Virus record (IMG/VR): IMGVR_UViG_3300037359_000042
Location: 1-43,368 of that record
Origin: a virus
Length of the DNA: 43,368 nt
Reading direction: 5' to 3' (one strand)
The position numbers were made by a program, and so were the translations under genes. The notes beneath the pieces were generated by a model. The model saw nothing but the letters and a program-made list of their open reading frames with translations, was not told the origin of the DNA and did no database searches. Shown in pieces: positions 27,439-43,111 of this stretch (the stretch's first letter is position 1; each line of letters opens with the position of its first letter).

Positions 27439-27608
27439 AATGTACTCCTTGAACACGCCCACTGCGCTGGACTCGGGGCGCTGATGAGCCGGATCATAAA
27501 GCATTCACCGCACTTAGGGCAAGCGGGCGGGCGCTCCTCGTCCATTTTCCGGACAAGTTTTTCTACCTTGTGCTGGCAAGATGGGCATTGGTACTCAAAA
27601 ATTGCCAT
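27435..27608 (-). CDS. FmdB-like zinc-ribbon protein
   Basis: 57 residues from ATG 27608, with GGAG upstream in the GGAGAAACTCTGATG leader. The sequence starts MAIFEYQCPSCQHKVEKLV, continues with CPKCGECF and then RLISAPSPAQW. Two C-x2-C pairs and the following R-L-I-S-A-P are hallmarks of the FmdB putative regulatory zinc-ribbon family. Its last codon overlaps the Endo VII-like start by ATGA. The 15-bp element at 27540 encodes VRKMD between the two Cys pairs. Function of the family is poorly known; protein or nucleic-acid binding is likely. Confidence 0.8.
   Translation of the reverse strand: MAIFEYQCPSCQHKVEKLVRKMDEERPPACPKCGECFMIRLISAPSPAQWACSRSTL
27540..27554 (-). repeat. 15-bp element copy in the zinc-ribbon gene
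   Basis: GTCCGGAAAATGGAC in transcription sense, one change from consensus, encoding VRKMD. Confidence 0.8.
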
Positions 27609-28587: not shown

Positions 28588-28928
28588 GCGGCGTCCCCCC
28601 CTAGTCCATCATCTGGACTTTTTTCCGACCGCGCCACCATCGGCTTGTCTGGTTTGTGCTCCCATTTGTTTTTCGGTTCCTCGGGATTTGAAGGAAACTC
28701 AATAACCTGCTTCTGCTTCGCCTCATACCCGGGGGGCAGGAAGTACTCAGCAGCGTGCAACTGGCAGCAAAATGATTTGTTAGTCCCGTTACTGGTTACA
28801 AGGACGAGGTACAGAGACTCTTCCGGTGGTTGCTGACAACCGGCGGCTGCCTCGGTCTCGCTCCAGGTCAGAACGTTATTGCACCCCTTTAAGTCGCAGG
28901 CTACCGTGATAGTCTTCGATACTCCCAT
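28584..28928 (-). CDS. Small Cys-rich protein of unknown function
   Basis: 114 residues, ATG 28928 inside TAATG shared with the sigma gene's stop, with GGAGGG upstream. CDLKGC near the start and SFCCQLHAAEYF at about 53-64 form a C..C / C..H layout that may bind zinc, as in small phage FCS.xH proteins. The C-terminal third is charged and disordered. The 15-bp element at 28604 encodes SPDDGL. Confidence 0.6.
   Translation of the reverse strand: MGVSKTITVACDLKGCNNVLTWSETEAAAGCQQPPEESLYLVLVTSNGTNKSFCCQLHAAEYFLPPGYEAKQKQVIEFPSNPEEPKNKWEHKPDKPMVARSEKSPDDGLGGDAA
28604..28618 (-). repeat. 15-bp element copy, one mismatch
   Basis: GTCCAGATGATGGAC in transcription sense, close to the 3' end of the Cys-rich gene and just upstream of the SleB-like gene's start. 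Confidence 0.8.
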
Positions 28929-29434
28929 TATCCCTCCGTCTCAAAATACTTCTTCAGCTTCTTGATTACCTGATCCCGGCGGCGGCGAACTGCCGACTCG
29001 CTTATTCCCATGTCAGAGGCGGTCTGCTCCCGGGTCCTTCCCTGAATGTACAAGCTCTCGGCCACGAGCTTCTCATCCCCGGACAAAGTCGCTATCGCTT
29101 TGTGTACCTGGTCTTCTGCCCGGTCTTCCGATTCCTTGGAGGCAACCAGCATCGCCTGGTGCATGACTTTGGCATCAGACAACGAGAAGAGTTTTACGTT
29201 CAACGGAGACTTCTGTCCCACGCGCTGCTGCGTGTCTTTTCTCCGAACATCTGCTATCCGGGTTTGGCATATCACTGTAGCCCCGGCCTCGTCATAGTCC
29301 CCCTTGAGGTAGTTCTGCTTTTCGAGCAGAGCGACATAGCATTCTTGGGCCATGTCTTCTCGCTGGTACCTTGGCACCAACTGCTTGGCCAAAACTCGTT
29401 TGATTATAGGTTTGTAAACGGTAACGTCCATCAT
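28928..29434 (-). CDS. Small sigma-70 family (ECF-like) sigma factor
   Basis: 168 residues. ATG 29434 or ATG 29431 follows GAAGGACA; the longer frame from 29473 overlaps the previous gene by 40 bases and is less likely. Region 2 features appear at about 25-75 (YQREDMAQECYVALLEKQ, ARRKD-like RIADVRRKDTQQR), region 4 at about 110-160 (LSGDEKLVAESLYIQGRTREQTASDMGISESAVRRRR), a clear helix-turn-helix. Region 3 is absent, as in ECF factors. A phage sigma factor would redirect host RNA polymerase to phage promoters, plausibly those of the structural arm. I do not see its target promoters with certainty. Confidence 0.8.
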   Translation of the reverse strand: MMDVTVYKPIIKRVLAKQLVPRYQREDMAQECYVALLEKQNYLKGDYDEAGATVICQTRIADVRRKDTQQRVGQKSPLNVKLFSLSDAKVMHQAMLVASKESEDRAEDQVHKAIATLSGDEKLVAESLYIQGRTREQTASDMGISESAVRRRRDQVIKKLKKYFETEG

Positions 29435-29829
29435 TGTCCTTCTGGACTGACTGGTAATTTTGCTGTGTGCCATCTCCGATTCCCGTGTGCGGAATCTTTA
29501 TTTCCCTGATGGCACGAAGGGCATAACGCTTCACAATTCGTCAAGGAGACCTCTCCGCCGGTCTTACCTCCTCCGGCTCCTTTCGGACGCTTCTCGTTCA
29601 TTTCCATCGTCTCCCACTTTATTTCTCGTCCGCATTTCTCACATTCATGATACCCGTCTTCGTTCCTGGTTCGAGAGTAGACCTGATACCGTATCTCACC
29701 CACGGCCTCCGCCCTGTCCATTATCCGGACAAACTCCGGGTCGTAGTTCAGCCACGAGTGATCTCGGAATATCCGGACGACGTTTCCTATTCCGTCGAGT
29801 TCAACGCGGACGGATTTGGTTTTGCTCAT
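29431..29829 (-). CDS. HNH endonuclease
   Basis: 132 residues from ATG 29829, behind GGAG. The N-terminal 50 residues are unrelated to nucleases; then CEKCGREIKWETMEMNEKRP and SLTNCEALCPSCHQGNKDSAH, NRRWH give the two zinc Cys pairs and the H/N/H residues of an HNH enzyme. It overlaps the upstream gene by 28 bases and the sigma gene by ATGA, so it is embedded in the operon rather than free-standing. The 15-bp element at 29716 encodes VRIMD. Confidence 0.75.
   Translation of the reverse strand: MSKTKSVRVELDGIGNVVRIFRDHSWLNYDPEFVRIMDRAEAVGEIRYQVYSRTRNEDGYHECEKCGREIKWETMEMNEKRPKGAGGGKTGGEVSLTNCEALCPSCHQGNKDSAHGNRRWHTAKLPVSPEGQ
29716..29730 (-). repeat. 15-bp element copy in the HNH gene
   Basis: Exact GTCCGGATAATGGAC in sense, encoding VRIMD. 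Confidence 0.9.
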
Positions 29830-30529
29830 GCTCCATCTCCAACCAGGTGCTTCTGCACTCTCGTGTTGCGGCTAAGAAAACCTCTTTGTGAATCTCGTAC
29901 TCTTTTTCCGAAGCGATCTGTAACACCTTTCGACCAAGTTCCCAGAACGCCGATATTTCTTTCCTCTCGTCTGGTGTCGCGTAGAATCCTGGCAGTTCAA
30001 ACCACAATCCAGATGGAGTCTCGTGGATGTGGAGAAGCTCATTGACCTTCACCCGGAGTTGGGCAGCCGTTACCTTGGGGTCGGAAGCGTAGTCCATTAT
30101 TCGGACGGTCCCGCAATGACCCTCTGTTTGGTTGTTGGGGTCTAGGTCTAACAACTCTGCTTGTACGCTGCCCCCGCCAAGCACCAACCTCCGAAGCTCG
30201 TGGGATTTTGTAATTCCAATTTGCTCCATCTGCTCTTCGGACATCAATGGGAGCAAAGCCTCGGCCACGGACAGGATCGCGTACATTTGGCTACGTTGTC
30301 TGTCTATCTTCCCCCGAATGGCCTCCAGATATGAGGAGAACCTATCGTAACCCAATGCTATCCAGTACTGCTGGAACTTGACTTCCCGCAGCAAGCCACC
30401 GAGCCTAGCGTAGCTCGAAGCCAGGCGCATCTCATGCGACGAAATCTGCCCAAGCAGCACGTCGATCTCCGCCTGCTTCTGAATCGCAGCTTCCGGGTTG
30501 AGCGGGGGGAGGATGGTTATTTCGGTCAT
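29801..30529 (-). CDS. Hypothetical helical protein, possible DNA-binding
   Basis: 242 residues from ATG 30529, overlapping the clamp stop by ATGA. The N-terminal half is helical: YARLGGLLREVKFQQYW, ALGYDRFSSYLEAIRG, then DRQRSQMYAILSVAEALLPL and ITKSHELRRLVLGG, which has the feel of plasmid ParB-like or methyltransferase-associated helical DNA-binding regions. No certain match. The C-terminal part is mixed. The 15-bp element at 30092 encodes VRIMD. Placement next to clamp and sigma suggests an early regulatory or replication role. Confidence 0.6.
   Translation of the reverse strand: MTEITILPPLNPEAAIQKQAEIDVLLGQISSHEMRLASSYARLGGLLREVKFQQYWIALGYDRFSSYLEAIRGKIDRQRSQMYAILSVAEALLPLMSEEQMEQIGITKSHELRRLVLGGGSVQAELLDLDPNNQTEGHCGTVRIMDYASDPKVTAAQLRVKVNELLHIHETPSGLWFELPGFYATPDERKEISAFWELGRKVLQIASEKEYEIHKEVFLAATRECRSTWLEMEHEQNQIRPR
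30092..30106 (-). repeat. 15-bp element copy, exact
   Basis: GTCCGAATAATGGAC in sense, encoding VRIMD in the 242-residue protein. Confidence 0.9.
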
Positions 30530-31596
30530 TTCTTTTCCTTAGCCACCATAGTTTTCATCATCACCACAACCCCGTCTGACTCCAACCGCACTGGATCGTC
30601 TTTCGTTCGGTATCCGAATGTTGAGTTTTCCCCGGCCTTGGACAGGAAACTGGACAGGTACTTCCCGCTGAGTCTGATACCCAGGTCTTGTGGATCGAAG
30701 ACCGGGTCCGGGTCTAGTTGCTCGCACGCGGATTCGTCCCGCGCCGTGCTCCCAACTCCCACTGAAGTACATTGTATCACACTTGGGGTGAAATGTAAAC
30801 CCACCGCCCCCTGGTCCAGGGATTCGTCGATCAGGGGCTCGACCGTGCGCAGTGCGGCCAGCAGTTCCTCGGACTTAAAGCCAAATTTCACCACGGGGGA
30901 AGCCGTGAGATGGGCGTCAAAATTCGGGTATTTCTTCTCTGGTTTCGAGGCATAAACCGTTGTATCTCCTGATTTTAACTGGAGGCAGGTGTCGGAATCC
31001 CCGAACTCGATCACATCTCCGTCCATTATCTGGACAACCCCGGCGGCGGTCAGGTTGAGCAGGGATAGAAACTCGAAGGGCACCAACTCATGAACTTCAG
31101 CGACGGTCAGGACCAAGGAGTCAGTCCCAGCCACCCTGTATCCCGGCGGGAGCCCGGACTCCAACCCCGGGGGCAACGAACGAAGCTGAACCACACCCCC
31201 GAAAGCAGCGGACTTCGCGGGGGAGGCCGAGGCTGCGGCGACGGCCAACGCGCGCCTCAGACTCTTGGCGTCCAGCGTCATAATCTTGTCCGGGGATTCG
31301 GGGAATACCTTGGGTTTCACGGTCTGGACCTCAAGCTCGACCCGGGCCTTAGCCGAGGCCAGTATCAGCTTGTTCCCCTGGCGGGCGATGTCGATGTCCC
31401 CGGACATACGCGACACGGTCCCGGCCAGCTTCTTGCTCGCCACGGAGAATGTCTCTGAAAACCACGGGCCATCTACTATGACGATCACGTCCGAATCCTG
31501 AGCACAAATCCCGAAGGTGTTAAAGACGTATGTCTCCGTCTTAACCGGGGTCAGCTTCTTTAGCTTGTGCTTCAAATCAGATGCTTGGATAATCAT
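30526..31596 (-). CDS. DNA polymerase sliding clamp (DnaN-like)
   Basis: 356 residues from ATG 31596 after AAGGAG, close to the length of bacterial beta clamps (about 366). The order of three clamp-fold repeats can be traced: MIIQASDLKHKLKKL at the start, FPESPDKIMTLDAKSLRRAL at about 115-135, KYPNFDAHL before the third repeat, and IRLSGKYLSSFLSKAG with VVVMMKTMV at the end, which is where DnaN has its R-Y-L-D-L and V-M-P-M-R-L. A clamp raises the processivity of a polymerase; the phage polymerase is not in the window, so it may use one elsewhere or the host enzyme. Confidence 0.75.
   Translation of the reverse strand: MIIQASDLKHKLKKLTPVKTETYVFNTFGICAQDSDVIVIVDGPWFSETFSVASKKLAGTVSRMSGDIDIARQGNKLILASAKARVELEVQTVKPKVFPESPDKIMTLDAKSLRRALAVAAASASPAKSAAFGGVVQLRSLPPGLESGLPPGYRVAGTDSLVLTVAEVHELVPFEFLSLLNLTAAGVVQIMDGDVIEFGDSDTCLQLKSGDTTVYASKPEKKYPNFDAHLTASPVVKFGFKSEELLAALRTVEPLIDESLDQGAVGLHFTPSVIQCTSVGVGSTARDESACEQLDPDPVFDPQDLGIRLSGKYLSSFLSKAGENSTFGYRTKDDPVRLESDGVVVMMKTMVAKEKK
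31021..31035 (-). repeat. 15-bp element copy in the clamp gene
   Basis: Exact GTCCAGATAATGGAC in sense, encoding VQIMD. Confidence 0.9.
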
Positions 31597-31627
31597 TGTT
31601 CTCCTTCAATCCACTTGCTTTGGCGAT

Positions 31628-31642
31628 GTTCATTATCTGGAT
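31628..31642 (-). repeat. 15-bp element copy, degenerate
   Basis: ATCCAGATAATGAAC (two changes) in sense, overlapping the TGA of the 71-residue gene and 30 bases before the clamp start. Confidence 0.6.
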
Positions 31643-31857
31643 CAGACATTGGCTACATCCCCTTTTAGAGCAGAGATGGCTTTCTGAATGAGGTCGTAGC
31701 GGGAAAAGTAATAGGCTTGTTCTCTTTCTCTTTCCCTGCTTTTTCGGTCTCTCTTGCACACCCAGCATTCAGAGGAAAGAACGCTATTTTTCATCTCGAA
31801 ATGCTTCAGACAATACCCGTTCCACAACAGCGTAATTTTGGCTAAAAGTTTGTTCAT
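31642..31857 (-). CDS. Small Cys/His protein
   Basis: 71 residues, ATG 31857 overlapping the upstream stop by ATGA. YCLKHFEMK and ECWVCKRDRKSREREREQ give a C..H / C-x2-C arrangement that could hold one zinc, followed by a very basic-acidic helix. Unrecognised. It stops in the degenerate element upstream of the clamp gene. Confidence 0.65.
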   Translation of the reverse strand: MNKLLAKITLLWNGYCLKHFEMKNSVLSSECWVCKRDRKSREREREQAYYFSRYDLIQKAISALKGDVANV

Positions 31858-32111
31858 TTCTTCACCTCTCGTGCTGTGAAGTGCGGGACAACTTCTCGGT
31901 CCACTTCATAGGTTCCTATTTCAGAACCGTTTTCGTCCCGAATAACCAGAACCAAAGGCCATAAGGACTCCCATCCATCGTGGCGGTCGTGGTAATTCTC
32001 GGCGGCGGCTTCAGCCAGCCATTCTCCATCCTCTTTGTCGAAATTGGATTGGAACTCATGGTAGCCATCCAACTCCATAGTTTCTGGGCGGGTGTAGCGG
32101 TACTTGGTCAT
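31854..32111 (-). CDS. Hypothetical protein, 85 residues
   Basis: ATG 32111 overlaps the primase-helicase stop by ATGA. The sequence is acidic and beta-rich, with DGEWLAEAAAENYHDRHDGWES and WPLVLVIRDENGSEIGTYEVDREV, the latter like a small beta-meander found in many phage early proteins of unknown function. No motif recognised. Confidence 0.65.
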   Translation of the reverse strand: MTKYRYTRPETMELDGYHEFQSNFDKEDGEWLAEAAAENYHDRHDGWESLWPLVLVIRDENGSEIGTYEVDREVVPHFTAREVKK

Positions 32112-33973
32112 TCCGGTGCCTCCTCATAATTGTGTTCGATTGCAGAAAACTCAGCGAACTCACCAAAAAACTGGAGGAACGCACTGGATTTTCCAAGACC
32201 TTTGGACCTGGTCTTCAGCATCTCCACCAGCGTCTTTTCTTCGTACGGATCGTCAACTCCCTCCCCGGTCGTGTCCTTGGACAACTCTCGGTGTATGGCC
32301 ATGAAACTATCGCAGGTGTCGCCGAGGGACGCCGATCCTTTTGCGTCGGCTATTACGGTCTTCTTCCCCCTGGACTGAGCGTTGGCTTTTCTTGGCTGAG
32401 ACACAACAATAAACTTCAGTCCGTACTGCACAGCCATCTGCTTGATACGCTTCATCGCGGCGGCCTGCACGCGGACCTCATCATCAATTCCCGTCGTATA
32501 AAAATGCAGGTTGTCCAGGACACAGACCGTAGCCCCGCACCTACGGACGGCGGCTTCCATCAAGTCGAGAACGTCCATGACATTATTGATGGTGGGATTG
32601 TTCCCCACGTAGTAGCTCACGCCGTCCAGTTCGTCAGCAGCTTCCTTCAGGTCTTCCTTCTTCAGAAAATTCCTGTTCTTGTGCAGGACCTGAGCCGCAA
32701 CCATCGTGGCGATTTCAGAGGGTGACAACTCACACTGCCAGTTCACGACCGTCTCATTGTATTTGCGCGCGCCGAACAAACTGAATTGCAGGGAGTAGCA
32801 AGTCTTGCCCTGACCGGTGGACGTAGACATCACACCTAGCACGGACCCGGGGAGCAAGATGGCCATTTCATCCACAGACTTCCACGGGAACCTGAGACGG
32901 TCCTGCCTGTCAACAAGGCTTGTGTCCTCGCCCGTACGCATGACTTCCTGGATGGAGTAGATGTCGGGCATGGGTGTGGACTTAGCCTTAGCCGTCAACT
33001 CCTCGACAAGAGTCCGTAATTTGTCAATGTTCCGTCCACAGTGCTCAATGAATGTCTGGTTAGCATCCTTCATTCCACCAGGCCACGCCAATAAGAATGT
33101 CCTCTCGGATAATTCCCTCCAAAGTTTGGCCATACTGCTGGTGCCCGCCGCATCCGCATCTCCAGATAATATCACCATCGACGACTTCATAAGGATGTCC
33201 TTCTGCACCGGAGTCAGCTTCGCTCCAGCGGAAGGGACACTCACTGCCCGAAATCCCGCTTGTTCCAAAACACATGTGTCAAACTCTCCTTCCGTAACAT
33301 ACAACGGTTCAAAAACGTCGATGGTCTCGGTGTTGAACAACGCGGTTGCCATGCCCGGCTGGCGCGCGAAGCCCCCCGGCTTTTTCCGGATAATGGACCG
33401 ATATTTCACGGACAGGACTTTGTCACCCTCGATGCACGGAAAAGCTATCCAGCCTTTGTCGGCGATGTCGGCACCGGACTCGCCCGCGAGTTGTCCGATG
33501 TTCTGCGCGAAGCCCAAGTGCAAACGCTGTGCTGTTTCAAGCGTTATCCCGCGCTCATTGAGCAGCCAGTCCTGAGCGGCCTTGGACGAAGCCAGGGCGT
33601 CCTCAAGTTTGGAGTATTGTTCAAGCGAGAGGGTCTTGTAAATTTTGGGCTCGGCGACGGACTTGAACGTGGACTCTACTTTTTCCTTGGTCGATGCCCA
33701 ATCCGATTGCCCGAGTTCTCTCTTTACCTTTTCCACAGCTTCTCCAAAACTGATTCCGTCCCGGCGCTCAACTAGCTGCATGATATTTCCACCGCCGCAC
33801 CCGGAGTGGCAAAACCAAAGCATATCCGAGTGGACGGCGAACGAGGGGGTCTTGTCGGCGTGGAATGGGCAGCACCCCATGTACACGTTCCCCTGCTTCT
33901 TCAGCCCCTTGATATATTGGCCGTAGATTCTCAGGACCCCGGGATCGGATTTCAGCGCGTTAAGGTCTTCCAC
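32108..33973 (-). CDS. Primase-helicase (DnaG zinc finger, TOPRIM, DnaB-like helicase)
   Basis: 621 residues. The start is GTG 33973 with AAAGGAG about ten bases upstream. The N-terminal zinc finger is CCPFHADKTPSFAVHSDMLWFCHSGC (shown here in two parts in the protein, about 35-60). The TOPRIM part has VTEGEFDTCVLEQAG (about 227) and LSGDADAAG (about 271). The RecA-type helicase has Walker A STSTGQGKTCYS (about 386), Walker B VCVLDNLHF (about 490) and a later FIVVSQPRKA. This is the bifunctional T7 gp4-like layout: primes lagging strand synthesis and unwinds the fork. It is the core of the replication module, after the initiator genes and before the clamp. Confidence 0.9.
   Translation of the reverse strand: MEDLNALKSDPGVLRIYGQYIKGLKKQGNVYMGCCPFHADKTPSFAVHSDMLWFCHSGCGGGNIMQLVERRDGISFGEAVEKVKRELGQSDWASTKEKVESTFKSVAEPKIYKTLSLEQYSKLEDALASSKAAQDWLLNERGITLETAQRLHLGFAQNIGQLAGESGADIADKGWIAFPCIEGDKVLSVKYRSIIRKKPGGFARQPGMATALFNTETIDVFEPLYVTEGEFDTCVLEQAGFRAVSVPSAGAKLTPVQKDILMKSSMVILSGDADAAGTSSMAKLWRELSERTFLLAWPGGMKDANQTFIEHCGRNIDKLRTLVEELTAKAKSTPMPDIYSIQEVMRTGEDTSLVDRQDRLRFPWKSVDEMAILLPGSVLGVMSTSTGQGKTCYSLQFSLFGARKYNETVVNWQCELSPSEIATMVAAQVLHKNRNFLKKEDLKEAADELDGVSYYVGNNPTINNVMDVLDLMEAAVRRCGATVCVLDNLHFYTTGIDDEVRVQAAAMKRIKQMAVQYGLKFIVVSQPRKANAQSRGKKTVIADAKGSASLGDTCDSFMAIHRELSKDTTGEGVDDPYEEKTLVEMLKTRSKGLGKSSAFLQFFGEFAEFSAIEHNYEEAPE
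33384..33398 (+). repeat. 15-bp element copy, one mismatch, reverse to transcription
   Basis: TTCCGGATAATGGAC on the plus strand inside the primase-helicase gene; one of only two copies in the leftward arm that oppose transcription. Confidence 0.7.
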
Positions 33974-33975
33974 TT

Positions 33976-34098
33976 TTACTTTGCTCCTTTGTGCTCCGGC
34001 CCTACAAATTTAGCCATCGTCCTTGGTCTTAGCCCCCACAGTACCGCAGCCGCCGCCCCGTTACACGTCTCGGTTAGCTGTCGTCCTCCGCCAATCAT
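33976..34098 (-). CDS. Small protein, 40 residues
   Basis: ATG 34098 overlaps the stop of the upstream 60-residue gene by ATGA and its own stop lies two bases before the primase-helicase GTG, so it exactly fills the gap. The product is glycine and alanine rich in its centre (CNGAAAAVLWGLRPRT) with a basic end (KFVGPEHKGAK). Its last codons carry the AAAGGAG used by the next gene. Unrecognised. Confidence 0.55.
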   Translation of the reverse strand: MIGGGRQLTETCNGAAAAVLWGLRPRTMAKFVGPEHKGAK

Positions 34099-34277
34099 TC
34101 GAACCTCTTGAATCCGGCGTCATACGCCCAGGTTTCGAGTTGCTTTTGTGTGAACACGTCTTCCGGCGTCAGGTTGTCCTGAATCCAGATTACCGCGCTG
34201 TCCAGTGGGTAGCTGGGCAGTCCGAGGGCTTCTTCCATGAAGTTTTCTTGCTGTGTCGAGTTGAAATCAATTTTCAT
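34095..34277 (-). CDS. Hypothetical protein, 60 residues
   Basis: ATG 34277, ATGA overlaps on both sides. Acidic, helical (PLDSAVIWIQDNLTPEDVF, QLETWAYDAGF). Unrecognised. Confidence 0.7.
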   Translation of the reverse strand: MKIDFNSTQQENFMEEALGLPSYPLDSAVIWIQDNLTPEDVFTQKQLETWAYDAGFKRFE

Positions 34278-34561
34278 GGTTTATCCTCAGTAACGTATGC
34301 CAAAGAGTGTGTCAAGATGAATTCCAGTTCTAGTTCCGGCCCCGAGCACTCATTGACCAAGTACTTAGCTCTGAATCCTCCGGACTCAAGCACTGCTCCA
34401 TTCTCTTTTCTTACCTCTGTGAGAAGACTCCTAGCCGTTTCCTTCAACCGTGCGATGGTTGGAGTTTGAAGATTGTCAAAGTACGTCCACCCCACCCGGC
34501 ACATGTAGTCATAGACCAACTCGAATTTGAACTTCTCAAGAATTTCTTCGATTGCGTTCAT
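34274..34561 (-). CDS. Hypothetical protein, 95 residues
   Basis: Start at ATG 34561 because GAGAGGA lies just before it; an in-frame ATG at 34579 would overlap the upstream gene. Two helices (AIEEILEKFKFELVYDYM, ARLKETARSLLTEVRKEN) and a beta-like end. Unrecognised. Confidence 0.65.
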   Translation of the reverse strand: MNAIEEILEKFKFELVYDYMCRVGWTYFDNLQTPTIARLKETARSLLTEVRKENGAVLESGGFRAKYLVNECSGPELELEFILTHSLAYVTEDKP

Positions 34562-34569
34562 TTTTCCTC

Positions 34570-34971
34570 TCAATTCCAAAGACTTCCAAAGTGTCGGGCA
34601 AACAATTTCAACCCGACTTCTTCTTGTTTCTTGAGTTGACTTTCTTCATCAGTGGACGAATCATATTCCATGTTAGAGAGCAGGTAGGCAGCTTTGAACC
34701 CCTCTACCATTTTATCGAGAATCTCGTCCCATCTCTTAGAGGTCATTCCCCTCCGGATCGGATAAGGGCCACCCTTCATAGAATTCAGAGCCGACGGAAG
34801 CCACTGACTCAGGTACATATCCAGGCTCCAAATATCACAGTCTGCGTACCCCCGAGTTCCCCTCTGCCAGAAGTACACAAATGCGTTCCAGTACCGAAGG
34901 GGGTTGAAGGAGTGCTTCCACCAACTCCAACAAAAAACACGCCACGGATTTTTGACCCCAAAGTAAAGCAT
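34570..34971 (-). CDS. Conserved-looking phage protein of unknown function
   Basis: 133 residues from ATG 34971 behind AGAGGGA. Tryptophan-rich start (WRVFCWSWWKH), then RGYADCDIWSLDMYLSQWLP and SKRWDEILDKMVEGFKAAY; the D.D.WS.D.YL..WLP phrase recurs in many phage early proteins without known role. A candidate promoter and a 15-bp element lie directly upstream, so it may head a sub-operon. Confidence 0.65.
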   Translation of the reverse strand: MLYFGVKNPWRVFCWSWWKHSFNPLRYWNAFVYFWQRGTRGYADCDIWSLDMYLSQWLPSALNSMKGGPYPIRRGMTSKRWDEILDKMVEGFKAAYLLSNMEYDSSTDEESQLKKQEEVGLKLFARHFGSLWN

Positions 34972-34988
34972 GGTTCCCTCTCAATTCT

Positions 34989-35003
34989 GTCCATTAACCG
35001 GAC
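34989..35003 (-). repeat. 15-bp element copy at a predicted transcription start
   Basis: GTCCGGTTAATGGAC in sense, one change, lying 9 bases after a TATAAT, so it would cover the first transcribed bases. Confidence 0.8.
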
Positions 35004-35011
35004 ATGTTTGC

Positions 35012-35023
35012 ATTATACCACAG
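35012..35023 (-). promoter_or_regulatory. Extended -10 promoter candidate
   Basis: CTGTGGTATAAT on the minus strand, a perfect -10 with an upstream TGG (extended -10). There is no good -35 box. It is in a 56-base gap before the gene at 34971. The identical 12-mer occurs at 41525-41536. Confidence 0.55.
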
Positions 35024-35027
35024 ATTC

Positions 35028-35660
35028 TCACCCAAAAACCGCGTCCACCAAATTATTTTCTTGGGTTTTGTCCGCTTCTCGTTTTAAGCGGTCGGCCTCC
35101 GCTTCGGCCTGAAGCCGAGCGACGGCTGTGTCCCGGTCCTTTTGGGCCTGCTTAGCCTCCTCAGCCTTACGCCGGGCCGTGTAGGCTAGGCCGTCCACTT
35201 TCTGGACAAAGTTCCCAGGTAGATACCCCAGGTTCTTGGGGTCAGTCAGGTCTTGATCCTGGAGCCAGGAGCGGAACACCGACTGGATTTCTAGAGCCGT
35301 GAACTCCTTCAGCACCTCTGCTAGTCTCACCCGATGCTTGTCCCCGAAGCTGATTTGCCCGTCTGAGAGGTAGGTAAGCTCCCGGGCAAGGGAAACTACC
35401 TCCGGGTCTCTAAACGCCGCAGCAGCGCCCGGTGTGTCAGCGGACAGCCTATCAGGAGCCACGTGTAGGTACTTCGAAACGGCTCCTTGAGGGAAATCGT
35501 CCCCCTGGCACTCTTCGAGGTACGCGGTGAAGTCTCGGACAACCGCGCCGGACTTGTGAATAACGGACAGAGCTTGAAGCTCTTCCCATGTACTTTGGTA
35601 CCCACCAGCCTTAACCCCGTACTTTACGCACACCGCTTGAATTTCTTTCTTGATCTTCAT
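35028..35660 (-). CDS. Putative replication-associated protein (helicase-loader/replisome organiser candidate)
   Basis: 210 residues from ATG 35660 after AGGAG. The N-terminal 70 residues look like a mixed domain; the middle (VRLAEVLKEFTALEIQSVFRSWL) is helical and is followed by PGNFVQKVDGLAYTARRK and a long charged coiled coil (ARLQAEAEADRLKREADK). It sits with the DUF1376-like gene, the 126-residue gene and an iteron region, the usual company of replication initiators. No catalytic motif. Role by context only. The 15-bp element at 35193 encodes VQKVD. Confidence 0.5.
   Translation of the reverse strand: MKIKKEIQAVCVKYGVKAGGYQSTWEELQALSVIHKSGAVVRDFTAYLEECQGDDFPQGAVSKYLHVAPDRLSADTPGAAAAFRDPEVVSLARELTYLSDGQISFGDKHRVRLAEVLKEFTALEIQSVFRSWLQDQDLTDPKNLGYLPGNFVQKVDGLAYTARRKAEEAKQAQKDRDTAVARLQAEAEADRLKREADKTQENNLVDAVFG
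35193..35207 (-). repeat. 15-bp element copy, degenerate centre
   Basis: GTCCAGAAAGTGGAC in sense. The five-base arms are intact and two loop positions differ. Encodes VQKVD. Confidence 0.65.
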
Positions 35661-35671
35661 TTCGTTCTCCT

Positions 35672-35686
35672 GTCCATTAACCAGAA
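35672..35686 (-). repeat. 15-bp element copy, degenerate
   Basis: TTCTGGTTAATGGAC in sense, followed directly by AGGAG, the ribosome binding site of the gene at 35660. Confidence 0.5.
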
Positions 35687-35714
35687 TTTTTGAGAGAGTC
35701 CAGCGTCGCAGACT

Positions 35715-35777
35715 CCAATCCTATCCATACCAATCCATACCAATCCTAGCGGGATAATCCCGGATTGGTCCCGGATT
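35715..35777. repeat. Iteron-like cluster, candidate replication origin
   Basis: The 116-base gap between two replication genes holds three direct CCAATCC (35715, 35730, 35740) and one inverted GGATTGG (35762). It also has two tandem ATCCATACCA units (35723-35742), two CCCGGATT units 11 bases apart (35759, 35770), and the palindrome CGGGAT-A-ATCCCG (35750-35762). A similar CCCGGA pair with the same spacing lies 200 bases on, inside the next gene (35959, 35970). Such clusters beside initiator genes commonly mark origins, as in lambda O. The position and repeats are seen; origin function is inferred. Confidence 0.5.
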
Positions 35778-36157
35778 CATCCCACATCATCGGAAGTTAC
35801 TGAAATAGGAGGACTTGGGGGTAGATTCTTGTATCGTTCCCAATGTTTCTTGGACGGCAGCCTTCCTGCTTTGTCAATTCCCGTCCAAAACCCCCAAACC
35901 TTGCCGTTTTCGTCCCAGGTGCGGAGTAAATCTACCCGCACGAAGTCCGCGAGCAAATCCCGGACCCATCCCGGACTGGTCCCATCTCGGTGGAACGAGT
36001 ACGCCTTCGACCAAATTCGATCAGGGTCTGCCTCGAACACACCGTTTGCCTCTGCCAGAGGAATCAGGTATGAGTACTCGGCACGGTGCTCCGGCTTCAG
36101 GGCTTTGACTTTTCCGGAGAGGTAAATTGCGTCTCCGTCAACTACTCGTGCAGGCAC
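35777..36157 (-). CDS. Putative replication protein (winged-helix-like)
   Basis: 126 residues. GTG 36157 is the start, behind AGGAGAACGCCT, and overlaps the upstream gene by 20 bases. YSYLIPLAEANGVFEADPDRI, VRDLLADFVRVDLLRTW and KVWGFWTGIDKAGRLPSKK follow the pattern of phage replication proteins with a small helical domain and a G.W.GI.K.GRLP tail, as seen next to DnaC/DnaT-like loaders. The DNA of its C-terminal third contains iteron-like repeats. Function inferred from similarity of pattern and context. Confidence 0.55.
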   Translation of the reverse strand: MPARVVDGDAIYLSGKVKALKPEHRAEYSYLIPLAEANGVFEADPDRIWSKAYSFHRDGTSPGWVRDLLADFVRVDLLRTWDENGKVWGFWTGIDKAGRLPSKKHWERYKNLPPSPPISVTSDDVG

Positions 36158-36716
36158 AGGCGTTCTCCTGGATAAACTTTAGAAGCTCTGGGGATTCGTT
36201 GTACCACTCTCCGTGGGAGTGATTTTCTTTCCAATCCATTTGAGTGCATAATTCTGTAAATTTTCCTCCATGAAGATGGCCCAAAATGTTAAGTTTTTCT
36301 GGACTCCCCACCTGCAACTGAGACCGTCGAATCCTTAAATCCCGATCAGTCTGCCCAATTTTTATTCTTTTTGAAATTTCTCCTTGGATGAAATAAACAA
36401 GACCTCGGCACTCCTTCTCGTACAAGTCTCTCAAATAGGGGCTAGACAAAACTATCTTTCCGTCCACTTCTATTTTGTCGAACATTCCTAAAACGGCATC
36501 CTTTATGGAATCCCACTCTCTTCGATCCGCACAGTACGCCATCAGGTATAGTTCTTCTTCGTCGTCTGGGAGGTTAGGACGTGTTGAGCAGATGAAAGCC
36601 TCGTGCAGGAGCATCATATAAGTTTTGGCTTCCGTGGTGCTCATCCGACGCACCTTTCTGTCGGCCATAAATTCTTCGTGGCTCCACGGTTGATATATGC
36701 CTTTTTGCTCTGCCAC
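36138..36716 (-). CDS. DUF1376-like replication domain fused to a GIY-YIG nuclease domain
   Basis: 192 residues; the start is GTG 36716, AGGAG being seven bases upstream. Residues 8-105 (PWSHEEFMADRKVRRMS, MMLLHEAF, LPDDEEELYLMAYC, SIKDAVLGMFDKI, PYLRDLYEKE) fit the DUF1376-type phage replication domain. Residues about 106-188 (GLVYFIQGEISKRIKIGQT, RIRRSQLQVGSPEKLNILG, GEWYNESPELLKFIQ) fit the T5orf172/GIY-YIG nuclease family: VYFIQ/IKIG replaces GIY/YIG, and R and E are in the expected order. This is an unusual fusion and may be a homing nuclease that invaded the gene, replacing its C-terminus. It lies immediately before the next replication gene. Confidence 0.7.
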   Translation of the reverse strand: MAEQKGIYQPWSHEEFMADRKVRRMSTTEAKTYMMLLHEAFICSTRPNLPDDEEELYLMAYCADRREWDSIKDAVLGMFDKIEVDGKIVLSSPYLRDLYEKECRGLVYFIQGEISKRIKIGQTDRDLRIRRSQLQVGSPEKLNILGHLHGGKFTELCTQMDWKENHSHGEWYNESPELLKFIQENACACTSS

Positions 36717-36728
36717 CTAGCTTCTCCT

Positions 36729-36743
36729 GTCCATTATTCGGAC
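36729..36743 (-). repeat. 15-bp element copy at a gene end
   Basis: Exact GTCCGAATAATGGAC in sense, holding the TAA stop of the phosphoesterase gene and followed by AGGAGA, the ribosome binding site of the next gene. Confidence 0.95.
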
Positions 36744-37243
36744 AACCTTTTCTTCAAATCTTCCAATGAAACCGGCGTGTAATCAATCACTTCCACGCTT
36801 ACGTTGAAATACCGAGGACCAAAGAATCCAGCCGGAGTATTGTTATGAACGTGTCCATGTACATTAGCACGGAATCTTCCCAAGCTCTCTGGGTGGATCG
36901 GTATGTGTGTAAAAATCAAACCATCCAAAACCCGTGAGGCGTAGATTTCATCAAAGTATTTCAGATAGTCCTTGGTCCGAAATATATCATGGTTTCCGCG
37001 TACGAGCCTCTTATGCCCGTTGCAACGGGACACCGTCTCCAAATCGGGGCGCTTCATGGAAACATCTCCTAGATGGTAGACGTGGTCTTGTGGGCGAATC
37101 ACAGAGTTCCATTTGTCTACTATGTATTGATCCATTTCTTCCACGCAGGAGAAGTTTCGGACCGGGGACCCATCTTGTTTCTTAAAAGACAAGATGTTTG
37201 CGTGCCCAAAATGGGTGTCGGAGATTACAAACAAATTTGCCAT
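36734..37243 (-). CDS. Metallophosphoesterase (calcineurin-like, short)
   Basis: 169 residues from ATG 37243, overlapping the preceding stop by TAATG. All metal-binding motifs are present: ISDTHFGH (D.H), HLGDVS (GD), RGNHD (GNHD), FTHIPIHP and NVHGHVHNN (GH.H). The compact length and order fit YfcE/MJ0936-type enzymes, which hydrolyse phosphodiesters or phosphomonoesters. Common in large phages beside replication genes, substrate unknown. Its stop lies in a 15-bp element. Confidence 0.85.
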   Translation of the reverse strand: MANLFVISDTHFGHANILSFKKQDGSPVRNFSCVEEMDQYIVDKWNSVIRPQDHVYHLGDVSMKRPDLETVSRCNGHKRLVRGNHDIFRTKDYLKYFDEIYASRVLDGLIFTHIPIHPESLGRFRANVHGHVHNNTPAGFFGPRYFNVSVEVIDYTPVSLEDLKKRLSE

Positions 37244-37252
37244 TAACTGGAC
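37238..37252 (-). repeat. 15-bp element copy at a stop-start junction, degenerate
   Basis: GTCCAGTTAATGGCA in sense, containing the stop of one phosphoesterase gene and the ATG of the next. Confidence 0.55.
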
Positions 37253-38013
37253 AACTTTCCACCTAAAATTTTCGGCTCTTCTTTGAGCATGTCAACTAAC
37301 AGTGCAAGCTCCCGGCCAGTAAGTTCCTTCTTCCGGGGTAGGGGAAACTCTGGGAGTTCGGCTACCAAGTCTTTTTCACTTTGAAAGTCTACTACAATTG
37401 GTGCATTCACCGGCTTGTACGCTTCATTCAAGAGGGAAGCGTTTACAAACTGAGTAGGTCCTTCTTTGAATGACCCGTACCCGCCGTGGATGTGCCCGAA
37501 GACGTGCAGCTTAGGTTTAACTCTTCGCACGGCTTTGAGAAGCTCTCCACACCCCAGGTGCTCGACTTCCCGTCCCGGTTTGATTTGATCTAAGAGGCCC
37601 CAGGGAGGCCCGTGCGTGATGAGCACATCTGTGTCGTCAGGTATCATGTCCCAGTACTTCCTGATGTTAGGTCCGCGTTTGACGTTGAAGGCCCAATTGC
37701 AGAATTCTGGTTGTACGGGCGATCCCCAGAATTTTACTCCATCAATTTCAACACCCGAGTTTTCCAGGTAGGTCGCGTTGGTCAAGAAACTTCGTGCGAG
37801 TCTCCTGTCTTCCTCAAACATTCGGTCGTGATTACCAGCTACAACAATTATTCGAGGATGAGGTAGAGTCCCTAGCCAGGCATTGAAGTCTAGCACGTCA
37901 GCGGCGCTGTTTCCGTTGCACATGAAGTCCCCGGAGTGAATTAGCACGTCTCCTTCCGGAATCGTGAACCGGCGGTGCATACCATGTGTGTCTGAAATTA
38001 GAACCAACCGCAT
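37243..38013 (-). CDS. Metallophosphoesterase (second, 256 residues)
   Basis: Start at ATG 38013, with GGAGG five bases upstream; an earlier GTG at 38025 is in-frame but has no separate site. The motifs LISDTHGMH, HSGDFM, VVAGNHDR, DVLITHGPPWG and HVFGHIHGGYG give the full set of metal ligands. A C-terminal extension of about 50 residues is Glu, Lys and Leu rich (ELTGRELALLVDMLKEE) and may bind a partner. Similar phage and bacterial proteins act on nucleic acids or nucleotides. A TACAAT-type promoter candidate is just upstream. Overlaps the next gene by one base. Confidence 0.85.
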   Translation of the reverse strand: MRLVLISDTHGMHRRFTIPEGDVLIHSGDFMCNGNSAADVLDFNAWLGTLPHPRIIVVAGNHDRMFEEDRRLARSFLTNATYLENSGVEIDGVKFWGSPVQPEFCNWAFNVKRGPNIRKYWDMIPDDTDVLITHGPPWGLLDQIKPGREVEHLGCGELLKAVRRVKPKLHVFGHIHGGYGSFKEGPTQFVNASLLNEAYKPVNAPIVVDFQSEKDLVAELPEFPLPRKKELTGRELALLVDMLKEEPKILGGKLSS

Positions 38014-38252
38014 ATTTTCCTCCACAGCTTATTGTACCACGGAACTTTCTGTCGGAGTTCAAAAACTCGTTCGTCAGTGCAGACATAGAGGCTATCGCCT
38101 AACCGGACCAGGCCAGTAATGATCTCACGGGGCCGCAGAGGAAGCTTGAGAAACTTTGCTTCCGGGAAATCAACAGAAGCCGCACAAGGTCCATCATGCC
38201 CTTGCTCGCGGGAGCACATCCAACCTTCGGGTGGTATACGACATCCGTTCAT
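37998..38252 (-). CDS. Hypothetical protein, 84 residues
   Basis: ATG 38252 overlaps the nuclease stop by ATGA. CRIPPEGWMCSREQGHDGPCAAS has three Cys and one His, possibly zinc-binding as in small phage proteins that begin C..P.GW.C.R..GH.GPCA. The C-terminus is basic and aromatic. The role is unknown. Confidence 0.65.
   Translation of the reverse strand: MNGCRIPPEGWMCSREQGHDGPCAASVDFPEAKFLKLPLRPREIITGLVRLGDSLYVCTDERVFELRQKVPWYNKLWRKICGWF
38031..38042 (-). promoter_or_regulatory. Weaker extended -10 promoter candidate
   Basis: CCGTGGTACAAT on the minus strand, sharing GTGGTAYAAT with the sites at 35012 and 41525. It lies 18 bases before the phosphoesterase start, inside the 3' part of the previous gene. 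Confidence 0.35.
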
Positions 38253-39418
38253 TCCGTTTCCTCCAGGTCCGCCAGGAAGTCTTCTTCCGGTTTCTGTGGC
38301 TTGATTTGGATTAGTAACTCGTCACGCAGCTTGTCATCTTTCAGGCAAATTCCACGGAAATTGCACCACGAGCAGATCGCATTTGGAAATCTTACTCCAC
38401 CGTCCTGGGGAAAGCGGCCAGTTTCTGCTGCGGTCTTGACGGCGATCATGTCGTCGCCTATTTGCTGACCTACTTCGCTCATCTCTTCTTCCGGAATTAT
38501 GGTCTGGATATATTGCAGGAGAGTCCGGGTGACCTCCTCACGTCCCACAGAGCAAAGTCCTCCTTTAGCCAGGAACTCTGTCACTACTTGTTCTTTTCTC
38601 TCGGCAGCACCTTTTCCGCCAATTAACTTCAGAGCCTCGTCCATTATCCGGACCGTTTCAGCATCCCCCAAGTACAAGTATTCTTTCTCTTCTTCGGACT
38701 TAGCTTCTATGACTTTTGCAACGACTAGCTCTTGCCCTGCTTTCCAGTCGCGGGTGTCGGCCAGCAACGTAACAGACGCTCCTTTTTTGAACTCGTCCGG
38801 GTGCCCGGCCTTTACAAAGTTCAGGAACCCCACGTCGCGGATTCCAGAGACCCAGGCGTACTTTCTAAGCTGCCCATCCATCGACAACATCCCGGGAGTG
38901 GCGTCGAGCGCGGTCTTCGCCGTCTTCACGTCGATGATGACCCGGCTGCCATCCTCCAGCGTTGACAGGATGTCGATGTACCCAAGGAAGGTAAGCTCCC
39001 CAAGGTTCGTCCCCGGCCACAGGGGCTTCGAGAACTGAAGCTGGAATTTTGGGCTCTTGATGGGCAGGGAGGGCAACATGATCTCGTAGAGCTTCAGCAT
39101 CTCTTTGCCCATTGTGTACAAGTCGAAAAAGTTGTTCTCCTGAGCGGTGTAAACCAGTTCTTTGTTCTCGGACCACTTCAGCCACAGCCGCTCGAATTCA
39201 GAGACAGCTTCACCCGACTTCAGGCCATTCTCGTGATAGAACTGAATCGCGGATTCTACGCACTTTCCGAATTCCAAACTGGCCTTCTTGTCCTTCTCCC
39301 TCCAGCCGTCGATCTTTGACAGCCGGAACTTGCGGCGGCAGAATCTGAATTGATCCAAGGAACTGGACGAGGCGTGCTGTATTTCTTTTCCTGTTGAAGA
39401 TTTGTAAATGTAGGTCAT
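38249..39418 (-). CDS. RecB-like PD-(D/E)XK exonuclease with Fe-S cysteines
   Basis: 389 residues from ATG 39418, ATGA overlap upstream. SSSSLDQFRFCRRKFRL opens the domain, GYIDILSTLEDGSRVIIDVKTAK carries the catalytic D...D-x-K, and QLRKYAW follows as the usual QxxxY motif. One Cys near the start (FRFC) with three near the C-terminus (CSWCNFRGIC) form the four-Cys iron-sulfur cluster pattern of AddB/Cas4/RecB-like nucleases. Such enzymes digest DNA ends during recombination and in phages support replication or degrade host DNA. The 15-bp element at 38639 encodes VRIMD. Confidence 0.85.
   Translation of the reverse strand: MTYIYKSSTGKEIQHASSSSLDQFRFCRRKFRLSKIDGWREKDKKASLEFGKCVESAIQFYHENGLKSGEAVSEFERLWLKWSENKELVYTAQENNFFDLYTMGKEMLKLYEIMLPSLPIKSPKFQLQFSKPLWPGTNLGELTFLGYIDILSTLEDGSRVIIDVKTAKTALDATPGMLSMDGQLRKYAWVSGIRDVGFLNFVKAGHPDEFKKGASVTLLADTRDWKAGQELVVAKVIEAKSEEEKEYLYLGDAETVRIMDEALKLIGGKGAAERKEQVVTEFLAKGGLCSVGREEVTRTLLQYIQTIIPEEEMSEVGQQIGDDMIAVKTAAETGRFPQDGGVRFPNAICSWCNFRGICLKDDKLRDELLIQIKPQKPEEDFLADLEETE
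38639..38653 (-). repeat. 15-bp element copy in the nuclease gene
   Basis: Exact GTCCGGATAATGGAC in sense, encoding VRIMD. Confidence 0.9.
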
Positions 39419-39803: not shown

Positions 39804-40054
39804 TTCTTCTCCTCAAACCAGCTATCGGTCCATCCAGCCACACCATATCCGTCGATGGATACAATCCAAAGTTCTTTCCATCCCCGGCTCGGGTCTCCTC
39901 CCGGGATAGCTATTTTTGCGCGAAGATTATCAAAATTCACATCCACATAGAATCTCCAGAGTTTCTCGCGTAGATACTCTCCGAGTTCGAAGGGGGATTT
40001 GAACTCTCGTATTACTTCCTCAGTACCCCCGCCGTGGTGGTCGCAGTATTTCAT
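39800..40054 (-). CDS. Hypothetical protein, 84 residues
   Basis: ATG 40054, ATGA overlaps both sides. A CDHHGGG start is followed by a helix and a beta sheet (FYVDVNFDNLRAKIAIPGG, ELWIVSIDGYGVAGW). No family recognised. Confidence 0.65.
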   Translation of the reverse strand: MKYCDHHGGGTEEVIREFKSPFELGEYLREKLWRFYVDVNFDNLRAKIAIPGGDPSRGWKELWIVSIDGYGVAGWTDSWFEEKK

Positions 40055-40383
40055 TTCTTCCTCCGGGGCTTAGGCGTGTCCAGGTAACGGACGAATTCGT
40101 AGACAGTGCTGGACCACAACTCCCCGGAGAAAGGAGAAAAGTAATAGAACACCCAATACGCATCTATCCCTCTAAAAGCCTGGTCTCTTCGAAGCAGTAG
40201 GGACGGTTTCATGGTTTTCCCGCATGTTGTACACATCCCGGATAAAGGAAGAATTGTTCCTGGTTTAGATGGGATTAAATGATGGTTTGGGCACGACAAG
40301 CCGAACACCTCTCTAGTCCGATCTTCTGGTTTCGTCGGTGGATCGACTGGCTCCTCAACTGCTTTGCGTGGCCAAAACCTCAT
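40051..40383 (-). CDS. Small zinc-finger-like protein
   Basis: 110 residues. Start ATG 40383, GAAGGAG seven bases upstream and overlapping the previous stop by ATGA; a longer frame from 40506 is rejected. LSCPNHHLIPSKPGTILPL and MCTTCGKTM place one Cys plus two His and two Cys as probable zinc ligands; the C-terminus is basic (TPKPRRKK). Function unknown. Confidence 0.65.
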   Translation of the reverse strand: MRFWPRKAVEEPVDPPTKPEDRTREVFGLSCPNHHLIPSKPGTILPLSGMCTTCGKTMKPSLLLRRDQAFRGIDAYWVFYYFSPFSGELWSSTVYEFVRYLDTPKPRRKK

Positions 40384-40637
40384 AGGGTCTCCTTCGATAC
40401 GATCTGGAAGTACACGGGTTGGAAAGGACGCCCGAAAGTAAATTGCGAGAAAAGTAGGCTTCCCCCGTTGGCAATTGTTGCCCGCTCCTCGTCTGTGAAC
40501 TCCCACCGGCTGGACATCCGTTTATCATCACCATCAGTGAGAACGGTGGGTATAGGAAGGTACTCTGGTTGATCCTTTGCCAAGAGGAATTCGTAGGGCT
40601 CGGAAAATCCAGGCATGACCGGCGATACAGGTTTCAT
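40380..40637 (-). CDS. Hypothetical protein, 85 residues
   Basis: ATG 40637 with GAAGGAG upstream, rather than the long frame from 40943. The product has a Pro-rich start and RWEFTDEERATIANGGSLLF, a phrase met in small phage proteins that begin a gene with a 'E-R..I..G..L' helix. Overlaps both neighbours by ATGA. Confidence 0.65.
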   Translation of the reverse strand: MKPVSPVMPGFSEPYEFLLAKDQPEYLPIPTVLTDGDDKRMSSRWEFTDEERATIANGGSLLFSQFTFGRPFQPVYFQIVSKETL

Positions 40638-40966
40638 ATTTTCTCCTTCACTATGTAGATCGGATTGGTTTGGAGCGCGACGAGGTCCTCTGCGAGTTTC
40701 ATGTAGACATTCACCATCTTTTCCGTGTCTCCGCAGAGCCGTTCGCCGAAGACCCAAAGGGTATCTTGAAGCTCCTTCGCGTTGGCGGGGAGGTCGTTGT
40801 CCAGATAATGGACAAACGCTTCCGCGTAGTATCTGATAGGTTCGCACTGGATACGGAACATTCCATCGCCGGGCGTCCACGTCGGCTCCGACTTCTTTGG
40901 CATGAGCTTCTCCAGCTTGCTCATCAATGGGTACTTGTACCAAATGCTGTCTTGTTCAGGAAACAT
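40634..40966 (-). CDS. Hypothetical protein, 110 residues
   Basis: ATG 40966 with GGAG upstream; the longer frame from 40999 overlaps the previous gene. Mostly helical (YYAEAFVHYLDNDLPANAKELQ, EKMVNVYMKLAEDLVAL). The 15-bp element at 40799 encodes VHYLD. Unrecognised. Confidence 0.65.
   Translation of the reverse strand: MFPEQDSIWYKYPLMSKLEKLMPKKSEPTWTPGDGMFRIQCEPIRYYAEAFVHYLDNDLPANAKELQDTLWVFGERLCGDTEKMVNVYMKLAEDLVALQTNPIYIVKEKI
40799..40813 (+). repeat. 15-bp element copy opposing transcription
   Basis: Exact GTCCAGATAATGGAC on the plus strand. The coding strand reads VHYLD. Confidence 0.9.
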
Positions 40967-41507
40967 TTTTCTCCTCTTTGACGTGCTTTTTTGCGGCATT
41001 CAATTGTAGAGTCACTCGTTCGATTGTTTCTTGTGCTTCTCGAATCTGACTTTGGTAGTAGCGGACGTTCCAAACCCACGATTTGTCGGGCTTGGTTTTG
41101 GAGAGGAGTCTTTCCGTTTCTTCGGCGTCCCGTTCCTGTTTCAGAACTTCTGCTCGGGCAAGAGCCTCCTCTTTCGTGGCGAAAACGTCTGGTTCCTTCA
41201 AGCACCAACAGCTATTGCTCCCGGCGGAGATTCGATACTCGAAATCCCACGGTTCGGAGGTTTGCTTTTCCACCCCGCAAATTGGCCCTTCTCTGGTTGC
41301 CGGTTCGTAAACGTACCCGCTTCTGCTCCCGTTCGATCCTTCGTACCCTCGTTTACAGTCTTCGCAGTCAATTGTGAAGGTCTCGCCTTCAAGGATAATG
41401 GTCACATATCCTTTACCAGAGCAGCTTATGCAGGGCACCCACTTCGTAGAGGATTGGAGGTAGGCGTGGAAGACATAGTCTCCGAAATTGAATTTTGGCT
41501 TGTTCAT
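40956..41507 (-). CDS. DnaJ-type zinc-finger-like phage protein
   Basis: 183 residues from ATG 41507 with GAGGAG upstream. CISCSGKGYVTI and CEDCKRGYEG near residues 25-57 give two C-x2-C pairs, the first in CxxCxGxG form as in DnaJ zinc ribbons. The C-terminus is a long coiled coil (EALARAEVLKQERDAEETERL, IREAQETIERVTLQL). Probably binds nucleic acid or protein; unknown function. The TATAAT candidate at 41525 lies just before it. Confidence 0.65.
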   Translation of the reverse strand: MNKPKFNFGDYVFHAYLQSSTKWVPCISCSGKGYVTIILEGETFTIDCEDCKRGYEGSNGSRSGYVYEPATREGPICGVEKQTSEPWDFEYRISAGSNSCWCLKEPDVFATKEEALARAEVLKQERDAEETERLLSKTKPDKSWVWNVRYYQSQIREAQETIERVTLQLNAAKKHVKEEKNVS

Positions 41508-42356: not shown

Positions 42357-42532
42357 CCCGGAATCCAGACAATCTTATCGTCTTTTCGCAGGTAGACAGC
42401 CCCACCGCTGACCCACAAGAAGTCTTTGAGTTGTCTGATGGTGAGGTCCTCCGGAGCGACGATTCCCCCTTTTTCCATCGACCACAGGCCGGTGTCCAGG
42501 TAGTCGGCGTACTGCCCAATCGTAATGTCCAT
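42347..42532 (-). CDS. Hypothetical protein, 61 residues
   Basis: ATG 42532 lies in the 15-bp element at 42527, GGAG directly before it. The product is a small alpha/beta protein (TIRQLKDFLWVSGGAVYLRK). TAATG overlap with the helicase. Unrecognised. Confidence 0.65.
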   Translation of the reverse strand: MDITIGQYADYLDTGLWSMEKGGIVAPEDLTIRQLKDFLWVSGGAVYLRKDDKIVWIPGER

Positions 42533-42541
42533 TATCTGGAC
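42527..42541 (-). repeat. 15-bp element copy at a stop-start junction
   Basis: Exact GTCCAGATAATGGAC in sense: upstream gene ends ESR-stop within it, downstream ATG starts in it, and GGAG overlaps its first base. Confidence 0.95.
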
Positions 42542-42958: not shown

Positions 42959-43102
42959 TTACAAAGTGGATGGCGGGGGCCCCACAACTGGTTGACACAG
43001 GCGGCAATTGGCAAGTTCTTTCTTCCACCGTTGGTAAAAATCATAAAGAGTTTCTCGCTCAAGCCAAACCTTTGTTATTTCCGGTACAGTTGATTTGTCC
43101 AT
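42959..43102 (-). CDS. Small protein, 47 residues
   Basis: ATG 43102 lies inside the 15-bp element at 43097 with GAGGAG upstream, and the gene runs 47 codons to TAA 42959. The product is helical and charged (VWLERETLYDFYQRWKKEL) and ends NCRLCQP with one C-x2-C pair. Start context and one-base overlap with the gene before it argue for a real gene. Unrecognised. Confidence 0.65.
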   Translation of the reverse strand: MDKSTVPEITKVWLERETLYDFYQRWKKELANCRLCQPVVGPPPSTL

Positions 43103-43111
43103 TATCTGGAC
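43097..43111 (-). repeat. 15-bp element copy at a stop-start junction
   Basis: Exact GTCCAGATAATGGAC in sense: the partial gene ends EESR-stop in it and the 47-residue gene starts in it. Confidence 0.95.

Follow-up and report, generated by a model that had tools for sequence, protein, structure and literature searches.

A dispersed near-palindromic DNA element and the pentapeptide shared by unrelated proteins in a clade of soil phages

Dispersed sites in temperate phages and the element in the window

The cluster A mycobacteriophages, among them L5, Bxb1 and TipsytheTRex, carry 20–30 similar short stoperators over their temperate genomes; each phage has its own variant of the motif, and most sites lie away from promoters (PMC6550527, PMC9283540). 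These stoperators are 13-bp asymmetric sequences, each recognised by a monomer; they follow the direction of transcription and are located mostly in short intergenic spaces (PMC6550527, PMC9283540). In the large temperate phage SPbeta, a repeated 15-bp motif, SPBRE, has been described at intergenic regions and is recognised by one master repressor, MrpR, a protein with the tyrosine-recombinase fold whose recombinase function has been lost (PMC10516654). Phage P1 possesses 22 C1 operators, which are 17-bp asymmetric, AT-rich sequences widely dispersed over its genome (PMC8546580).

Here we describe a repeated site in a linear IMG/VR virus record of 43,368 bp, a fragment, the whole of which is referred to as the window. 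The 15-letter near-palindromic element GTCCATTATCYGGAC is present in 14 exact and 10 one-mismatch copies, with several weaker copies besides, and occupies about 30 places within and between unrelated genes. It is found in both arms of the window and in five of the six frames. Markov-1 simulations of the window yielded no copies of GTCCATTATCYGGAC at 0–2 mismatches, and a reversed-pattern control gave no matches in the window. Rfam and tRNA searches of the element returned no hits, and a reading as an RNA family or tRNA was dropped on these grounds. The copies are as follows (coordinates in the window, strand, description).

4021–4035, +: intergenic element, preceding a conserved 362-aa structural gene (4045–5133, +)
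6046–6060, +: element, PLSG frame, 1221-aa protein
7378–7392, −: two-mismatch element, PNNG frame, 1221-aa protein
9129–9143, −: intergenic element, one mismatch
10313–10327, +: element, SIIWT frame, 322-aa protein
13560–13574, −: element, PNNG frame, 3082-aa protein
14934–14948, +: element, PLSG frame, 3082-aa protein
18243–18257, −: element, PDNG frame, 3082-aa protein
18867–18881, +: element, PFSG frame, 3082-aa protein
20019–20033, −: element, PDNG frame, 3082-aa protein
22836–22850, +: element close to where the two arms converge
23880–23894, +: intergenic element
25957–25971, +: element between the HTH-phosphoesterase gene and a DHH gene
27540–27554, +: GTCCATTTTCCGGAC, VRKMD in a zinc-ribbon ORF (start near 27608, −)
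28604–28618, +: element, PDDG frame, 114-aa protein
29716–29730, +: GTCCATTATCCGGAC, VRIMD on the coding strand, residue 34 of a 132-aa HNH protein (29431–29829, −)
30092–30106, +: GTCCATTATTCGGAC, VRIMD, residue 142 of a 242-aa protein (29801–30529, −), in a variable linker
31021–31035, +: GTCCATTATCTGGAC, VQIMD, residue 188 of the sliding clamp (30526–31596, −)
31628–31642, +: two-mismatch element overlapping the end of a 71-aa gene
33384–33398, −: element, SIIRK frame, primase-helicase
34989–35003, +: intergenic element
35193–35207, +: GTCCACTTTCTGGAC, two mismatches, VQKVD, residue 152 of a 210-aa protein (35028–35660, −)
36729–36743, +: element at a gene end, LSE followed by a TAA stop within the element
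38639–38653, +: GTCCATTATCCGGAC, VRIMD, residue 256 of a RecB-like exonuclease (38249–39418, −)
40078–40092, −: two-mismatch element, VRYLD in a 151-aa protein (40051–40506, −)
40799–40813, −: element, sense frame 0, VHYLD in a 121-aa protein (40634–40999, −)
42527–42541, +: element at a gene end, ESR followed by a TAA stop within the element
43097–43111, +: element at a gene end, ESR followed by a TAA stop within the element

The 3082-aa protein (13433–22681), which holds five elements, has relatives throughout the clade at 52–63% identity, and its sole match is to DUF7178 (residues 1297–1485). The repeated-site system recurs in many IMG/VR contigs, with about 30–80 sites in each of the larger relatives of 75–110 kb, and contigs bearing the element supplied a comparison set of about 2.4 Mb of DNA.

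Anatomy, placement and variants of the site

Over 541 sites from 12 contigs, the information is confined to a 19-bp dyad, TTGTCCATTATCTGGACAA, coding and boundary sites being alike, and the consensus of the dispersed sites is the near-dyad TTGTCC-ATTATCY-GGACAA. No −35 box, second box or T-run was found within 45 bp of these sites, and in the absence of such flanking boxes a reading of the element as a promoter or terminator was dropped. The density is about one site per 1.4 kb, with a mean spacing of 1.3–1.7 kb in most large contigs; in most contigs the intervals are more regular than chance would give, and pairs less than 250 bp apart are rare. Approximately two thirds of the sites are intragenic, and 177 of 525 lie at gene edges where 53 were expected, in counts that include homologous sites common to several phages and are hence not independent. 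The gene's stop codon is contained in 34 boundary sites. Orientation bias is only mild: in counts that are likewise not independent, 183 sites are antisense and 85 sense at edges, a bias due in part to the stop codon in the element, and the corresponding antisense-to-sense numbers are 108:68 in early genes and 71:72 in late genes; for all sites inside genes, 178 are sense and 204 antisense. Site-free gaps were also considered as markers of lysogeny genes and rejected, as they fall mostly in long structural genes and have no clear lysogeny signature.

The preferred variant of the site differs phage by phage. GTCCATTATTCGGAC is preferred in contigs G001 and G008, GTCCATTATCTGGAC in G003 and G015, GTCCATTACCYGGAC and GTCCATTATCCGGAC in G029, GTCCATTTTCTGGAC in G038, and TTCCATTATCTGGAA in G011 and G018, the last with both ends altered together, as a dimeric site predicts. 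Homologous coding sites fit the genome-wide motif of their own phage better than the motifs of related phages, with a log-likelihood of −176.4 compared with −204.5 ± 6.3 under within-gene shuffling of the motifs; the observed value was not attained in any of 2000 shuffles (P<0.0005). A more distant relative, G050 (loci L270–L272), with a portal protein 50% identical, contains 30 perfect palindromes TTCCATTAATGGAA in 60 kb, and its 15 coding copies are all in the two stop-free frames; this set represents a system of the same type, independently and in cleaner form. The site set of a phage contig in a Candidatus Sulfotelmatobacter metagenome-assembled genome (MAG) is loose, with 15 KTCC-N7-GGAM sites compared with 4.5 expected and a maximum of 10 in 30 simulations.

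Similar to the cluster A stoperators, tens of short sites (about 30–80 in the larger contigs) are dispersed beyond promoters, and each phage has a cognate variant that its homologous sites match. In contrast to the asymmetric, oriented stoperators, the element is a near-dyad with weak orientation, and while stoperators are mainly intergenic, only the 177 edge sites described above are at gene edges, even though this is a 3.3-fold enrichment. Also, no repressor homologous to those of the cluster A phages was found here. The element resembles SPBRE as a short motif repeated through a temperate phage; however, the sites here fall mostly within genes, and the recombinase-type family seen in these phages is an integrase that, unlike MrpR, appears to retain catalytic-type R..HxxR..Y residues (read by eye). 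The P1 C1 operators share the genome-wide dispersal and are unrelated in sequence. The phages Tunturi_3 and Tunturi_4 have Acidobacteriota hosts, as the present clade probably does, but the element is absent from both. We file the element set with dispersed operators, from whose stoperator members it departs in two features, asymmetry with strict orientation and intergenic placement.

The shared pentapeptide and selection on DNA

An earlier note on this DNA had pointed to VRIMD at 29716, 30092 and 38639 and VQIMD at 31021, and position, frame and peptide are correct in each case, as are VRKMD in the zinc-ribbon protein and VQKVD at 35193. Copies in the rightward arm do read P(D/N)NG or PLSG (frame 1), and the copy at 10313 is read in another frame as SIIWT (frame 2). 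Further readings extend this list, namely VHYLD (40799) and VRYLD (40078) in frame 0, SIIRK (33384) in frame 2, and the gene ends at 36729, 42527 and 43097, at which the element supplies the TAA stop after LSE or ESR.

Homologues of each window protein were aligned, which gave 68 homologous positions in six protein families; the DNA element is kept at 46 of these and lost at 22. As to whether the pentapeptide is an insertion or a substitution, the columns are mostly gap-free and hence indicate substitution, with small indels confined to the neighbourhood of variable stretches in the HNH and 242-aa proteins; in the latter, the pentapeptide sits in a poorly conserved linker. The earlier note would have been contradicted by element-less homologues that conserve the pentapeptide, and just one of the 22, by hand count, keeps the exact peptide of the window (VQKVD in L197). 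Element-less homologues read YPLWE, ITLSE, VLTMS, VKTRE and similar, and L196, which is 87% identical in the 242-aa protein, has YPLWE at the element position.

The codons are also fixed. GTC CRG ATA ATG GAC spells 36 of the 37 V(R/Q)IMD occurrences in ORFs of about 18 related contigs, and the 37th ends in GAT; from codon usage in the group (GTC 0.26, CGG+CGA 0.36 or CAG 0.55, ATA 0.17, GAC 0.59), the chance of this spelling is 1–1.5% per copy by our own arithmetic. The TAA-containing frame holds 18 of 382 coding sites (14 contigs). Moreover, the peptide tracks the motif of its own phage, with VQIME or VQLME in a TTCC..GGAA phage and VQFLD in the GTCCATTTTCTGGAC phage.

The conclusion that selection acts at the DNA level stands on the pattern of loss among homologues, the codon fixation, the fit to each phage's own motif and the frame avoidance. 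The view put forward in the earlier note, that selection is on nucleic acid and not on peptide, is thus supported by the homologue alignment, the fixed codons and the phage-specific motif match. These comparisons support the shared pentapeptide being a by-product of a preserved dispersed DNA site: what evolution keeps is the DNA site and not the protein, and unrelated proteins thereby come to share five identical residues. For the clamp and the 210-aa protein this holds with less certainty: some peptide-level constraint or recent decay may be at work there, since their element-less homologues keep the related VQ..D-like peptides VQLMD, VQSLD, VQMAD and VQIAD.

Host, candidate binding proteins and proposed function

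The related contigs reach 110 kb, and genes of the clade encode a portal, a terminase, DNA polymerase A, a clamp loader, SSB, a UvrD-type helicase, a RecT-like annealing protein and a tyrosine integrase. The integrase is encoded in seven related contigs and was not seen in the window, a 43,368-bp fragment. As the tyrosine integrase occurs alongside the portal, terminase and DNA polymerase A families, this clade of tailed phages looks temperate. The nearest cultured relatives are the Tunturiibacter phages Tunturi_3 and Tunturi_4 (structural protein 30% and primase 24% identity). Based on these phages and on the MAG contig, of a kind that can be misbinned, the host is probably a member of the Acidobacteriota. 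A portal search of 396 Acidobacteriota genomes gave one positive, itself metagenome-assembled; no integrated prophage with the exact element was found, and Megablast of the structural region against cultured phages gave no match. Tunturi_4 (L200–L201), which has been cultured, bears an integrase and has two genes annotated as repressors, contains 12 copies of a different dispersed dyad, CTGCA-N5-TGCAG, with a GCACASTGTGCA core; this Acidobacteriota phage is a possible laboratory model. Among the other genes of the clade, a variable region of G001 encodes a TROVE/Ro60-like protein with a von Willebrand A domain (L117:7370–8752), and a small basic protein family (L116:16869–17195 in G001 and homologues) is found near the integrase in several phages.

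No recognisable repressor gene was found near the integrase or in the arms. Protein divergence was compared with motif divergence, and the correlation was highest for the 242-aa protein (r=0.70); it was 0.65 for the late-arm family fam25, 0.64 for the clamp, 0.62 for a 123-aa protein and 0.51 for the sigma-like protein. Two window proteins are candidate binders.

29801–30529, −: 242-aa protein, candidate binder with the strongest statistical co-variation with the motif
28928–29473, −: ECF-type sigma factor family protein, a weak candidate binder because its divergence tracks the motif

The latter scores above the cut-off for TIGR02937 and is conserved throughout the clade. As co-variation is shared by linked genes and the comparison took in nearly 40 families, the region of 28.2–31.6 kb counts as a lead to the binder and not as a result. 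The structure predicted for the 242-aa protein was of too low confidence to be usable (mean pLDDT 54), and a fold search with it gave no meaningful hit. The HTH of the HTH-phosphoesterase was rejected as the binder, as it does not co-vary with the motif (r=−0.06). This protein (24579–25754) and its homologues have a conserved N-terminal HTH (MPKTTPVPE...HHKTVNRIL) and metallophosphoesterase-like C-terminal domains that differ clearly between phages, a case of domain swapping behind one HTH.

We consider it moderately likely that the dispersed sites bind a putative phage-encoded dimeric lysogeny repressor that blocks elongation in a stoperator-like manner. A dimeric DNA-binding protein is suggested by the two-fold symmetry of the site and by the way its two ends change as a pair; this protein would be encoded by the phage and would most likely be the lysogeny repressor of the integrase-bearing members. 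Bound at gene boundaries and inside genes, it would halt transcript elongation throughout the prophage in the manner of the cluster A stoperators, and differences between site variants would set immunity groups apart. Such an elongation-blocking or master repressor fits the temperate lifestyle, the boundary enrichment, the lack of a promoter signature and the phage-specific variants; classic operator function was not seen, as the edge sites have no promoter signature. More tentatively, the sites may tile the genome of this soil phage clade from end to end, every ~1.4 kb and for the most part in coding sequence; a phage protein of a novel kind would read them and so silence or organise the genome, and drift in its specificity would rewrite peptides in unrelated essential proteins.

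The main rival to the repressor is a genome-organising protein, involved in partition, nucleoid structure or segregation in the manner of matS or Noc, which would condense, segregate or protect phage DNA with no repression. The even, nearly orientation-free spread over both arms and within genes would suit such a protein, and the 242-aa family, the best motif tracker, has very weak partition-like matches (NCBIfam borfam_49, E=0.12; one member to a ParB-like PHROG, E=0.2). However, these matches are below significance, enrichment at boundaries would sooner be expected of a transcription regulator, and an integrase is encoded by the phages; we regard this explanation as rather unlikely. Somewhat less probable still is that a phage nuclease, methylase or packaging/recombination enzyme, such as the HTH-phosphoesterase fusion, acts on the sites: several HNH nucleases are encoded and the conserved HTH is fused to differing phosphoesterase domains, but boundary enrichment is not predicted and the HTH sequence does not co-vary with the motif. 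A role as promoters or promoter operators recognised by the ECF-type protein is very improbable, for while the coding strand of the element contains GATAAT and the divergence of this sigma factor family member tracks the motif, two thirds of the sites are intragenic and in both orientations, a second conserved box is missing at every spacing up to 45 bp, and the site is a near-palindrome. Finally, a conserved protein motif for clamp binding or another interaction, acquired in parallel and with DNA identity secondary, is scarcely credible: the same peptide does occur in several replication proteins, and VQ..D-like peptides are kept in element-less clamp and 210-aa homologues, yet codon fixation is far beyond usage, the element also lies in other frames, on the opposite strand and between genes, and the peptide is lost with the DNA site, as in the YPLWE of L196.

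In unrelated genes, including those for a clamp, nucleases and a zinc-ribbon protein, the element shows cleanly how selection on DNA can override protein sequence in nature. It also hints at immunity or genome silencing through dispersed operators among the phages of a dominant soil group, for which, to our knowledge, no repressor of this sort has been described, and the motif variants lead to testable predictions on immunity groups.
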